Assembly (NCBI GenBank): GCA_027488135.1
Contig: JAIYCH010000014.1
Location: 1 to 64,000, forward strand
Reading direction: 5' to 3'
DNA: 64,000 nucleotides
Source of the DNA: Saprospiraceae bacterium
GTDB taxonomy: Bacteria > Bacteroidota > Bacteroidia > Chitinophagales > Saprospiraceae
Shown: in pieces, positions 53,911 to 58,693 of the stretch
How positions within the stretch are numbered: position 1 is the stretch's first letter
How the letters are laid out: each line of letters starts with the position of its first letter
Notes under the pieces: generated by a model
Database searches by the model: none
The model's input: only the letters and a program-made list of their open reading frames with translations
Told to the model about the DNA's origin: nothing
Position numbers and translations under genes: made by a program

Positions 53911-54177
53911 AATACATGATTTAAACTTGACGATTATATTTCTAATGTTTACAAATATAACTAATTAAGTAATTAATTTTATTTATTCTGTTAGTAGATA
54001 GTTTTTTAAAGATTTTCAACCGTTTTAATGGCATTTTCAGGAATTTTCAAAAAAAAATTAAAAAAAAATTAAAATTAAAATTCATGAATTTTCACAAATA
54101 TTTTAATAAATAACTGATTTACATTCTATTATGATAAAATAATATTTAAATAATTTTCACAATGAACTTATTTTGTC
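53911..54177. other. AT-rich non-coding DNA with A-tracts
   Basis: No gene or RNA signature was seen. The segment holds several phased A/T tracts around 54049-54085 (A9-TT-A9-TT-A4 pattern) and repeated TTTTCA motifs. These suggest curved DNA or an upstream promoter-stimulating element for one or both neighbouring transcripts. Confidence 0.35.
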
Positions 54178-54209
54178 TTTGTAAAGCCTTGTAGGCTGTC
54201 GCATATTTG
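54178..54209 (+). promoter_or_regulatory. Promoter-like pair upstream of the candidate RNA
   Basis: TTTG (54178-54181), a 20-base spacer and CATATTTG (54202-54209, seven of eight positions of TANNTTTG counting only fixed bases as C-A-N-N-TTTG) fit the Bacteroidota pattern. A start near 54215 is predicted, with a terminator 330-360 bases on. Confidence 0.45.
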
Positions 54210-54270
54210 TATCGTGGAAGGGAAAAAGGGGCAGTTGAAAATCAGAAAACGTTCTGAAAAATAAATTTGA

Positions 54271-54541
54271 TTATGTTCATGGGATTATATTGTCGGGGTT
54301 TTGTCGTCCCGGAAATATTCGGGACGATAATTCCACTATTTAATCCTTGTTACAAGGCAAAAATGTTTGCCTGAAGATAAAGGTCCAGGGGTTTTTCCCC
54401 GATTACAATTTGTAGTGTGTAAATATACACCACAGTAATTAATTAAGGGTTAAAGTGGCGGTTTTTTATTAAAACCTTAACGTTTTTAAGAAACCGCTAC
54501 AAAGTCCTTCACAAAATGTGTTTATGTTCATGGGATTATAT
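54271..54541 (+). repeat. Direct repeat pair, 20 bp
   Basis: TTATGTTCATGGGATTATAT occurs identically at 54271-54290 and 54522-54541, 251 bases apart. Each copy is followed within about 15 bases by a hairpin with a TCGT...ACGA stem (54304-54327 and 54544-54567). The interval given spans both copies. Confidence 0.9.
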
Positions 54542-54543
54542 AT

Positions 54544-54574
54544 AAGTCGTGCCTTAAGGGACGACTTTTTTTTT
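54544..54574 (+). terminator. Strong intrinsic terminator of the candidate RNA
   Basis: AAGTCGT pairs with ACGACTT, extended by CC/GG inside, around a TTAA loop. It is followed by nine T in a row. No coding sequence precedes it closely on the plus strand, so it must end a non-coding transcript or act as an attenuator before the operon at 54755. Confidence 0.88.
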
Positions 54575-54754: not shown

Positions 54755-57700
54755 ATGAAGCAAATAGTTACATTGTTACTCTTAGTTTCTTCTATGAGTA
54801 TTTTTGCACAGAAAACCATTCAAATAAGAGTTTCGAATGCAAATGATGATTTAGAAGAATTCATTCCTGGTAGTAATCAAACAAAACCACTGGGATCAAT
54901 GGATGCAGGTAGTTCCGATTTAGAACTCGGTTCAGAATCAGCAAATAATAAAGACCCACAATTGGTAGGTATTAGATTTGTTGGTATTCAAATACCCAAA
55001 AATGCCTTGATTACAAAGGCTTACATACAGTTTACTGTAGATGCTACCAGTAAGAATTCCGACCCATCTGAACTTTATATTTACGCTGAAAATGCAGATA
55101 ACCCTCGAACTTTTTCTCCTGACACGCTCTTCAATCTGAGTTCTAGGAGTAAAATAAATGATTCTATATTTTGGAAAATTCAAGATGCTTCCTGGAAAAC
55201 AGCCGGTGTTGCCGGTCAAGACCAAAGAACATCTGATTTATCACGTCTAGTCCAAGCTTTAGTAAATAGGGAAGGCTGGAATGTAGGAAATTCAATGGCA
55301 TTTTATATTAAAGGTAAAGGAACAAGAGAGGCTGAATCAGCAGATGACGAAGCTTCAAAAGCACCATTATTAGTCATAGAATATATAGTTCCTGTCACTA
55401 TTTCCTCAAGGGTTGCTTCAGCTAATGATGATTTAGAGGAATATATCCCGGGTCCTAACCAAACTAAAACATTAGGTTCTATGGATGCAGGTAGTTCGGA
55501 TCTTGAACTTGGTTCTGAATCGGCGAATAACAAAGATCCTCAATTGGTAGGGGTAAGATTCACTAATTTGAACATTCCTCCAAATGCAGTTATCCAGGAT
55601 GCCAGAATTCAATTTACAGTGGATGCAACTAGCAAAAATAGTGATCCTTCTGAATTATATGTTTATATTCAAGATGCAGAAAATCCTGGCACCTTTAATC
55701 CTGATAGTCTTTTTAATATTTCTAAAAGAATTGTAATTAAAGATTCTATTTTTTGGAAAATTCCTGATGCAAGTTGGAAAACGGCAGGCCAAGCAGGGAT
55801 AGATCAATTAACCCCAAATCTATCTAAACTAGTTCAAACGATTGTAAATAAACCAAATTGGAAAGCTGGAAATGCAATGGTTTTCTTATTAAAGGGTATA
55901 GGAACTCGGGAAGCGGAATCTGCTGACGACGAAGTCACAAAGGCACCTTTGTTTACTGTTAAATTTATCCCTGTAAATGCCATTACGACCATAGTTTCTT
56001 CCCCTAATGATGACATTGAGGAATATATTGCAGGTGCAAATCAGACAAAAACCTTAGGAACTATGGATGCAGGAAGCTCAGATTTAGAGCTTGGTTCGGA
56101 ATCAGCTAATAATAAGGATCCTCAATTAGTTGGTATAAGATTTGCCTCCGTGAAGGTAGATAAATCAAAAGCATTAAAATCAGCTTACATTCAATTTACT
56201 ACAGACGCAACTAGTAAAAACTCAGATCCTTCTGAACTACATATATATGCGCAAGATGCTGATAATCCAATAACATTTTATCCAGATTCGTTATTTAATG
56301 TTTCTAAACGTCCACAATTAAAAGATTCCATTTTCTGGAAAATTCCTAACGGGACATGGAAAACTGCCGCTGAGGCAGGTCCCGATCAACGTACTCCAAA
56401 TTTATTGCCATTAATTCAATCGTTAATTCAAAGAGATGGCTGGAAATCTGGAAATGCAATGGCCTTTTTTATAAAAGGAATTGGTACTCGCGAAGCAGAA
56501 TCAGCTGATGATGAAGTAACAAAAGCACCTAAATTAATCATTGAATATTTTGAAAGTGAAATCGATTCTTTGCCTACAGGAAATTCATTGAGTGTTTTCC
56601 CAATTAAAAAAGGAGAATCCTGGTCTTATGCTCCTGGTTCAGCAAGCCTGGATTCAGTTTGGTTCTCACCAAATTTTATAGATAGTAATTGGAGTTTTGG
56701 AAAAGCTCCACTTGGTTTTGGAGAAAAAGAAATAGTAACCACTTTGACTAAAAACCCTGGAAATACCTTGTTTAGAAAAAAGGTTTCTATAGCATCTGCA
56801 AGTTCCCTTTCTGATGTATACGAATTCCATCTTCGTGCAGATGATGGAGCAGTAGTTTATGTCAACGGAAAAGAGCAATTTAGAACAAATATGCCTTCCT
56901 CCAATGTGATTTTCTCAACTTTGTCAGCACGAAAAGTAGAAGGGAATGAGGAATTACCGTATTATTTATTTGAGGTTTCAAAATCTGCTTTTAAAGAAGG
57001 TGAAAATCTTATTGCTGTAAGTCTTCACTCATCTTCTGCAAATGATGACGATTTGTTTTTTGATTTATTCATCACACCTCGTGTATTTAAAACAAATGCA
57101 CCTGCTTTAGGTTGCTTAGATCCTAACGATGGTCATATAAGTTGCTTCACTTCTGTTATTCCTAGAATCCAGAATGATACCCTTCAAATTCCAGAGCGTT
57201 CTCACGTTTTTCAGTATGTTTCAGTAGAAGGTGATCCTTACAATAAAGGTACAGGCGCCTTGGGTAGCAATTTTGATTTCACAGGTTATGTTCCAAAAAA
57301 TGGCTCAAGTAAAGAAGGTTACCTCTCTATTAATCATGAAACAGATCCAGGTGGAGTTTCAATGCTCAATATCCGCTATGATGAATCAGTTGGTTTATGG
57401 AAAGTAGATTCAGCTCAAGCCATTGATTTTTCCAGCGTTGGAGGTACTATCAGAAATTGTTCGGGTACGGTAACTCCATGGAACACTATCGTTACTTGTG
57501 AAGAGGACTATGGTAAAAATTCCGACGGGAATGGTGATGGCTATTTTGATATTGGATGGTGTACAGAAATAGATCCTATTACTAAAAAAATAAAGGATTA
57601 TGGTACGGGAAAGCCTCAAAAACTTTGGGCTTTAGGTCGTATTAGTCATGAAAATGTAGTGGTTGACCCAATAGATAAAAAAACAGTTTATTTTGGTGAA

Positions 57701-58693
57701 GATGAAGGGGATGGTGCCGTTTATAAGTTTATCGCCGATAAAGCGGGTGATTTAAGTGCTGGAAAATTATATACCTTGGTTCTTGATTCTGTTTATACAG
57801 GTGGTGATTATAAAGGTAGTACAGGTAAATGGGTAGTTGTTCCCAATACCACTATAGCAGAAAGAAATGATACCAAAAAATTAACCTTAGCTTTAGGCGC
57901 AACAAAATTTGCTGGTGTTGAAGATGTTGAAATCAGTCCTTTAAATCAATTTATCTATTTTGCTGTAAAAGGCGCGGGAAGAGTTTATAGATTTAAAGAT
58001 AATGGATCAGTAATTTCCAATTTTGAAACATTCCTTGGAGGTTTGAATTATAGAGTTAATGTTGGAAGTCAAGTTGTATCTGAAAGCTTTGGTTCAGGAA
58101 TTGATAATCTTGCTTTCGATGAACGTGGAAATCTTTACGCGCTACAAGATGGTGGAAATAATTATGTTTGGATGGCAACAGCTAAACATTCTCAAGCGGC
58201 ACCTCAGGTTGAAGTTTTTATGAATACACCTATTGGTTCTGAACCTACAGGTATAACGTTCACACCTGACCATAAATTTATGTTTATTTCTATACAGGAA
58301 CCAAATACTACGGTAAAACAGTCGGATGTTGCAAAAAGATCTGTAACTCAAAATCTAAGTTATGCTTTGGCAATTGCCAGAACGGCAAACTTGGGACAGG
58401 GTAGATCTACGAGTGTAAATGAATTACCTGCTTTAGCACCAGATTTTCAACTATTTCCAAACCCTGCCAGCGATTTCGTTTCTGCCTCTATTTATCTTAA
58501 AGAAAATGCAAATCTACAGCTACAGGTATTTGATACACAGGGAAGATTAGTTTTAATGAGGAATTTAGGTAAACAAACTTCTGGAGATTATCGTATCGAA
58601 TTTGATACTGCGAACCTGATGAATGGCATTTATTTCGTAAAAGTTAATGCTGATGCAATGAGTTCTATCCTTAAATTAGTTGTAAACCATTAA
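54755..58693 (+). CDS. T9SS-secreted PhoX-type phosphatase with three acidic repeat domains
   Basis: The 1312-residue protein has a signal peptide (QIVTLLLLVSSMSIFAQ). Three copies of one domain follow, starting at residues 22, 216 and 410, exactly 194 apart. Each has DDxEE, then LGxMDAGSSDLELGSE, SANNKDPQLVGxRF and a final REAESADDE. Residues 615-790 form a galactose-binding-like beta-sandwich (FHLRADDGAVVYVNGKE). Residues 795-1215 are a PhoX (DUF839) domain with NHE, NCSGTVTPWNTIVTCEE, GRISHENVVVDP, YFGEDEGDGAVYKF, FAGVEDVEISP and EPTGITFTPDHKFMF. PhoX is an iron/calcium alkaline phosphatase. Residues 1230-1312 are a type A T9SS sorting domain (FQLFPNPASDFVSASIYL...NGIYFVKV). It is the first gene of a four-gene operon. 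Confidence 0.9.
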   Translation: MKQIVTLLLLVSSMSIFAQKTIQIRVSNANDDLEEFIPGSNQTKPLGSMDAGSSDLELGSESANNKDPQLVGIRFVGIQIPKNALITKAYIQFTVDATSKNSDPSELYIYAENADNPRTFSPDTLFNLSSRSKINDSIFWKIQDASWKTAGVAGQDQRTSDLSRLVQALVNREGWNVGNSMAFYIKGKGTREAESADDEASKAPLLVIEYIVPVTISSRVASANDDLEEYIPGPNQTKTLGSMDAGSSDLELGSESANNKDPQLVGVRFTNLNIPPNAVIQDARIQFTVDATSKNSDPSELYVYIQDAENPGTFNPDSLFNISKRIVIKDSIFWKIPDASWKTAGQAGIDQLTPNLSKLVQTIVNKPNWKAGNAMVFLLKGIGTREAESADDEVTKAPLFTVKFIPVNAITTIVSSPNDDIEEYIAGANQTKTLGTMDAGSSDLELGSESANNKDPQLVGIRFASVKVDKSKALKSAYIQFTTDATSKNSDPSELHIYAQDADNPITFYPDSLFNVSKRPQLKDSIFWKIPNGTWKTAAEAGPDQRTPNLLPLIQSLIQRDGWKSGNAMAFFIKGIGTREAESADDEVTKAPKLIIEYFESEIDSLPTGNSLSVFPIKKGESWSYAPGSASLDSVWFSPNFIDSNWSFGKAPLGFGEKEIVTTLTKNPGNTLFRKKVSIASASSLSDVYEFHLRADDGAVVYVNGKEQFRTNMPSSNVIFSTLSARKVEGNEELPYYLFEVSKSAFKEGENLIAVSLHSSSANDDDLFFDLFITPRVFKTNAPALGCLDPNDGHISCFTSVIPRIQNDTLQIPERSHVFQYVSVEGDPYNKGTGALGSNFDFTGYVPKNGSSKEGYLSINHETDPGGVSMLNIRYDESVGLWKVDSAQAIDFSSVGGTIRNCSGTVTPWNTIVTCEEDYGKNSDGNGDGYFDIGWCTEIDPITKKIKDYGTGKPQKLWALGRISHENVVVDPIDKKTVYFGEDEGDGAVYKFIADKAGDLSAGKLYTLVLDSVYTGGDYKGSTGKWVVVPNTTIAERNDTKKLTLALGATKFAGVEDVEISPLNQFIYFAVKGAGRVYRFKDNGSVISNFETFLGGLNYRVNVGSQVVSESFGSGIDNLAFDERGNLYALQDGGNNYVWMATAKHSQAAPQVEVFMNTPIGSEPTGITFTPDHKFMFISIQEPNTTVKQSDVAKRSVTQNLSYALAIARTANLGQGRSTSVNELPALAPDFQLFPNPASDFVSASIYLKENANLQLQVFDTQGRLVLMRNLGKQTSGDYRIEFDTANLMNGIYFVKVNADAMSSILKLVVNH

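Follow-up and report, generated by a model that had tools for sequence, protein, structure and literature searches.

A putative small RNA of a Saprospiraceae bacterium and its predicted family of repeated motif and stem-loop units

What kind of product would be made from a non-coding stretch that has the outward parts of a gene? The question is raised by positions 54177-54574 of the window, the whole 64,000-nt stretch of Saprospiraceae DNA analysed here, which looks like a strongly folding ncRNA gene that runs from a promoter of Bacteroidota type to a terminator (Table 1). The initial annotation had described a promoter-like pair, a nine-T intrinsic terminator and at least seven hairpins in a non-coding stretch, and each of these was recovered: there is no ORF of 40 aa or more within 54177-54574, and its predicted fold holds seven hairpins. 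CTTTG and CATATTTG match the Bacteroidota -33/-7 promoter consensus, and relatives from other genera have TTTTTTGTCTTTGT...GCATATTTGTATCGTG at the promoter position (six loci inspected). The terminator at 54544-54574 is absent from the list of a generic terminator scanner. The + strand folds better than dinucleotide shuffles (z -6.1, 0/100 as good), as does the - strand (z -5.5, 0/100), and because of the latter the strand is read from the promoter and terminator, not from the fold. The key feature had been missed, namely the repeated motif TGTTCATGGGATTATA at 54274-54289 and 54525-54540, which lies in a direct repeat of 28 nt (54263-54290 and 54514-54541, 93% identical). Stretches similar to the third element, GATTACAATTTGTTA, are by eye also present in relatives. 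In the consensus fold, the 5' leader UCGUGGA (54214-54220) is able to pair with UUCAUGG of motif copy 2, and a GUGA start is also seen in several relatives.

Table 1. Parts of the putative RNA gene, in window positions
Feature	Position	Strand	Basis and remarks
Promoter	54177..54209	+	-33-like CTTTG 54177-54181, -7-like CATATTTG 54202-54209; sequence
Putative transcript start	near 54214-54216 (GUG)	+	inferred
Putative small RNA, ~360 nt	54214..54574	+	conserved block in genus; fold z -6.1
5' hairpin	54242..54257	+	predicted fold
Motif copy 1, TGTTCATGGGATTATA	54274..54289	+	lacks AATTTGTT, a common extension elsewhere in the family
Stem-loop of unit 1, TGTCGTCCCGG...CGGGACGATA	54302..54329	+	predicted fold
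Hairpin	54355..54372	+	predicted fold
Hairpin GGGG-TTTTT-CCCC	54388..54400	+	predicted fold
Partial third element GATTACAATTTGT	54401..54413	+	like second half of extended motif; by eye
Hairpin	54417..54430	+	predicted fold
Long central hairpin	54455..54500	+	predicted fold
Motif copy 2, TGTTCATGGGATTATA	54525..54540	+	without the AATTTGTT extension
Intrinsic terminator, AAGTCGTGCC-TTAA-GGGACGACTT and nine T	54544..54574	+	sequence, predicted fold, 7/7 genus sequences

A search of six further genomes of the genus found the RNA in every one, at 91.5-94.4% identity to the copy in this genome. Identity of the flanks to this genome is 76-86% at 50-250 nt upstream, 79-94% in the last 50 nt and 50-58% over the 180 nt downstream, so that conservation stops near the terminator. 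Each of the seven genus sequences has the two motif copies as well as the -7 box and the terminator. A comparative alignment had been proposed as a way to find compensatory changes; it confirms conservation, while double changes are confined to 1 of 118 pairs in the consensus fold of the seven sequences, whose variation is too low to show covariation. The Rfam search, for which a match to a known family had been set beforehand as the refuting outcome, returned no family at threshold across the 64,000-nt window, including 6S RNA, tmRNA, RNase P and SRP RNA, and ARAGORN found no tRNA or tmRNA there; the initial annotation had seen no landmarks of these four RNAs by eye. Lack of conservation, the other outcome set as refuting, did not occur either. 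With no Rfam family and with clear conservation, there is support for the proposed structured RNA of about 360 nt as an undescribed one.

By sequence comparison, 54177-54574 is a member of a predicted, conserved Saprospiraceae family made of repeated units, each with a near-fixed 16-nt motif and a stem-loop of free sequence, and closed by a terminator-like end. The motif TGTTCATGGGATTATA recurs in weak matches from other genera, with a terminator and the same promoter layout (six loci). The exact 16-mer ATGTTCATGGGATTAT is present in 61 of 80 family genomes with 201 matches (table sum; reversed control 0), and a contig scan with an extended 25-nt motif gave at least 119 stretches. Titles among the matches listed (80) name Saprospiraceae, Saprospirales, Lewinellaceae, Phaeodactylibacter and Flavilitoribacter, together with looser labels (Chitinophagales, Bacteroidetes, Bacteroidota, Bacteroidia, or just bacterium). 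Across 395 genomes of the phylum, ten match with two mismatches or fewer, five inside the family and five outside; one outside match (L178) is protein-coding (HVHGIII, as in HUH transposases) and was taken as chance. The 183 loci yielded 135 distinct clusters that contain one or more exact copies. They hold one (43), two (56), three (26), four (7), five (2) or six (1) copies, which makes 92 of them tandem arrays of 2-6 units; 121 have a T run after their last motif, and 37 match a strict promoter pattern. Such bacterial small RNAs with 1-6 motif copies are apparently undescribed in the literature searched and in Rfam 15.

Each of the seven genus genomes has three exact copies, two in the RNA described here and a third at another locus with a single motif. 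In this genome the second member (G000:C2:65267-65282; L024, L256) has its own promoter-like and terminator sequences; it is found in 7/7 genus genomes, 3' of genes that by eye resemble those for di-haem cytochrome c peroxidase. Two convergent genes flank a near copy, TGTTCAAGGGATTATA, at G000:C81:2835-2850 (L045, L255); the gene for the RRM protein of the genome is about 2.6 kb away, and the near copy is likewise present in all seven. Elsewhere, a locus with a family member also matches a group II intron domain at a score above threshold (L020:215-343, RF02001, 34.4 bits).

The surroundings of the RNA had been read as a PUR-family gene on one side and a phosphate operon just downstream. Both are there in this genome: the adjoining PUR-like gene is DUF3276, aligning upstream at 90.7-95.6% in 6/6 genus relatives, and PhoX-like and phytase genes follow downstream. 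Neither holds as a general context within the locus flanks of 1.5-8 kb to which the neighbour search was limited, PUR being near 4 of 135 loci, all of this genus (near-identical genus loci were removed before the count), and PhoX near one, that of this genome. Cis-control of the phosphate genes was ruled out because the six genus relatives have a different gene downstream, and the phosphate neighbourhood is accidental. The PhoX-like protein (window 54755-58693) ends in a type IX secretion tail (Por_Secre_tail) and has a threefold repeat before the PhoX domain. Family-wide, the largest groups of recurring neighbours cover 20, 19 and 13 of 135 loci, groups that shared secretion-tail domains may have merged; we read them as reflecting the descent of several loci.

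Comparison of copies shows how the unit is built. Among 277 copies the core is near-invariant, a conservation that is inflated since copies were picked by core likeness, and many are extended by AATTTGTT (71-87% per position), whose conservation is not inflated. A stem of at least 9 pairs lies within 65 nt behind the motif in 215 of 227 exact copies, compared with 77 of 227 shuffled stretches; such a stem lies ahead of it in 63 of 229. Across 105 internal units the stem sequences vary widely and the motif is constant, so the stems are retained under sequence change, short of formal covariation. RNAalifold found no common structure in the 105 aligned units because the stems differ in place and sequence. 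By predicted pairing the motif is no more open than the rest of the RNA (0.37 vs 0.40, higher in 14 of 35), a point against the antisense seed considered below. A GGGAUUA/UAAUCC closing-helix partner follows 25 of 109 internal units (11.4 in shuffles) and 16 of 117 terminal units (14.6 in shuffles). Reading the motif as a mini-ORF (ATG TTC ATG GGA TTA TAA) was dropped, since neither copy in 54177-54574 has the stop.

This modular build bears on whether the RNA could be a diverged 6S RNA, tmRNA, RNase P or SRP RNA, which we regard as very improbable. Such a housekeeping RNA would fit the size and the promoter, and the 6S RNA of this genome is unaccounted for, 6S-Flavo (RF01685) being absent from it at E 1. 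Against it stand the window-wide lack of Rfam families at threshold, the 14 loci at which Rfam gave nothing relevant up to E 1, and an architecture of 1-6 units at several loci per genome. The initial annotation had placed the RNA in the size class of large housekeeping RNAs, a comparison that fails because members of the family vary in length and many species have several loci per genome; the absence of the exact 16-mer from 19 of 80 family genomes disfavours it as well. A SprD match overlapping L009 was set aside as chance (24.1 of 100 bits, opposite strand). Relaxed Rfam scans returned unrelated families together with GibS and FopS, both far below threshold.

The closest known kind is nonetheless the FopS/GibS sRNAs of Bacteroides (RF04319, RF04182), although the Rfam models do not place the RNA among them: it scores 18.9 of 56 bits with FopS and 21.7 of 115 bits with GibS, both below threshold. 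FopS is over the cut-off in 0 of 61 family genomes, and its two weak matches in this genome lie elsewhere than this RNA. The likeness consists of several paralogues per genome, a conserved stretch before the terminator and membership of the same phylum (Bacteroidota); a phage copy reported for FopS also has a counterpart in the viral copies described below. The FopS report describes a conserved single-stranded seed before the terminator, which binds beside SusC mRNA start codons, and an RRM protein, RbpB, which binds FopS at the seed region (PMC11697453). The FopS seed UUCAUGGUAUUAGA and the motif UUCAUGGGAUUAUA share 12 of 14 letters, a likeness equalled by 49 of 2000 shuffles. Unlike FopS and GibS, most of the family (92/135 clusters) is tandem, and unlike FopS, SusC starts of this genome show no pairing (30 loci), whereas starts of other exported proteins are weakly positive. 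Two further systems invite comparison. Sponge RNAs of the CsrB/RsmZ type likewise repeat a short motif many times in a single terminated RNA with stems, but their motif is shorter and sits in the stem loops, whereas that of the family lies between the stems. LhrC of Listeria, a multi-site base-pairing sRNA, has several seed copies per RNA and several paralogues, but belongs to another phylum and differs in sequence.

The family members are probably regulators with putative targets, and for this RNA we infer a trans-acting role. Our preferred reading, a tentative one at less than even confidence, is a multi-seed antisense sRNA acting near the start codons of exported-protein mRNAs. Each molecule of the RNA would present the motif repeatedly, as a set of antisense seeds that the stems space and protect. 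In the fuller motif, GGAUUAUAAUUUGUU would pair with AACAAAUUAUAAUCC just 5' of the start codon and CAU with AUG, and on mRNAs for exported or surface proteins this pairing would keep ribosomes from the start, as FopS does in much the same way on SusC mRNAs in Bacteroides. Our caution arises because neither motif copy in this RNA carries AATTTGTT; its two copies hold the GGAUUAUA part only, and the AAUUUGU part sits in the third element GATTACAATTTGT.

The evidence for this start-codon mechanism is mixed, with several negative tests and some positive ones chosen after the fact. Over 819 predicted gene starts, strong duplexes exceed controls at -16 kcal/mol (14 vs a control mean of 6.4; 4/60 controls as good) and at -15 kcal/mol (24 vs 13.5; 5/60), and are not unusual at -13, -14, -17 and -18 (13-14/60 controls as good). 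At -15, genes with signal-peptide-like N termini account for 13 duplexes vs 5.0 (2/120 controls) and other genes show no excess (11 vs 9.5; 44/120); the signal-peptide share in the top 40 duplexes is not raised (53/120 controls as high). The pattern ACAAATTN{2,5}TCCATG has 107 matches in 80 genomes (reversed control 35, summed). All 107 sites were read: 14 are start-like, eight of those signal-peptide-like, compared with 0 of the 62 TCCATG sites found elsewhere in these loci. Both sites of the exact 17-mer ACAAATTATAATCCATG are among the start-like ones, from two genera. The start-like share depends on the gap, being 6/13 at one edit or less from the complement and 8/94 otherwise (p 0.0017), or 5/12 after removal of the discovery locus, L403 = L083 (p 0.006); for A/T-only gaps p is 0.08. 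The predicted start region of a candidate target is AACAAATTATAATCCATG, and some candidate targets by eye resemble large surface proteins. The pattern and thresholds were picked after the first result, and starts and signal peptides are crude predictions; the start-region pairing is therefore suggestive only.

Other searches for complements speak against start-codon pairing. In this genome, 64 sites lie within 3 mismatches of TATAATCCCATGAACA (reversed control 42), and a plausible start was seen in about 3 of the 61 rows read (one row, L208, repeated its neighbour). AATCCCATGAACB has 44 matches against 11 in the reversed control (summed), with a likely start in 1 of 30 sites examined. None of the 30 SusC genes of this genome has a convincing motif complement, which leaves SusC unsupported as a target here, and 12 loci with complement-like or intergenic sites had no Rfam match.

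That most start-codon pairing tests of the full complement are negative also speaks for a second explanation, almost as likely as the antisense seed, if itself doubtful: an RNA-binding protein, such as the genome's own RRM protein, may bind at the motif, and the RNA would then be its sponge or store with multiple sites, like CsrB with another protein. The 1-6 identical sites per RNA, separated by stems, would suit such a sponge, as would a fixed stretch that exceeds the usual seed length. CsrA itself was rejected as the partner, having matched 0 of 61 family genomes while control genomes gave matches. A sponge sits less well with the commonness of single-copy members (43/135 clusters) and with the weak excess of start-region complements, and we know of no protein that binds the motif. 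This genome does have one RRM_1 protein, and an RRM protein, RbpB, binds the seed region of FopS (PMC11697453).

Viral copies bring in a further explanation. Five viral contigs (L317-L321) carry TATGTTCATGGGATTATAATT exactly. In L321 (e.g. L321:6654), which we take from gene order to hold phage tail-like genes, the motif lies 8 nt past a stop codon and before a hairpin, and in L318 directly behind an ORF and before a hairpin, in both cases like a 3'-UTR element. Among INPHARED phages, three records match, all at chance level. The motif and terminator might form a general 3'-end tag, for stability or chaperone binding, with target choice left to the variable parts. Those viral positions would agree with it, as would the placing of the motif right before the terminator in single-copy members and last units. 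We consider such a tag unlikely, given that the motif recurs in 105 internal units, at a distance from the 3' end, and that just 2 of the 135 bacterial clusters have a same-strand ORF within 60 nt upstream (in 97 the distance exceeds 200 nt, and 26 had none in the stretch). A wider speculation, to which we give rather low odds, is that the 16-nt element and its stem-loop are one interchangeable module of a regulatory system common to the family, used in Saprospiraceae RNAs of adjustable valency and also by the phages of these bacteria behind genes of their own, where it would perhaps enter or deplete the host circuit.

Returning to the multi-seed antisense reading that we tentatively prefer and the protein-site alternative, the near-fixed motif in 61 of 80 family genomes offers a direct handle to tell seed from protein site. 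Trans-acting multi-copy sRNAs are already known; what is new is a fixed motif set in tandem units, with a valency that varies, in what is apparently a real, conserved and so far undescribed small-RNA family as judged from the searched literature and Rfam 15. The varying unit number makes an effect of valency testable, and the viral copies suggest a role in phage-host contact. To our knowledge, little is known of small-RNA regulation in Bacteroidota outside Bacteroides, and the family could show whether FopS-like control of surface proteins extends beyond that genus.
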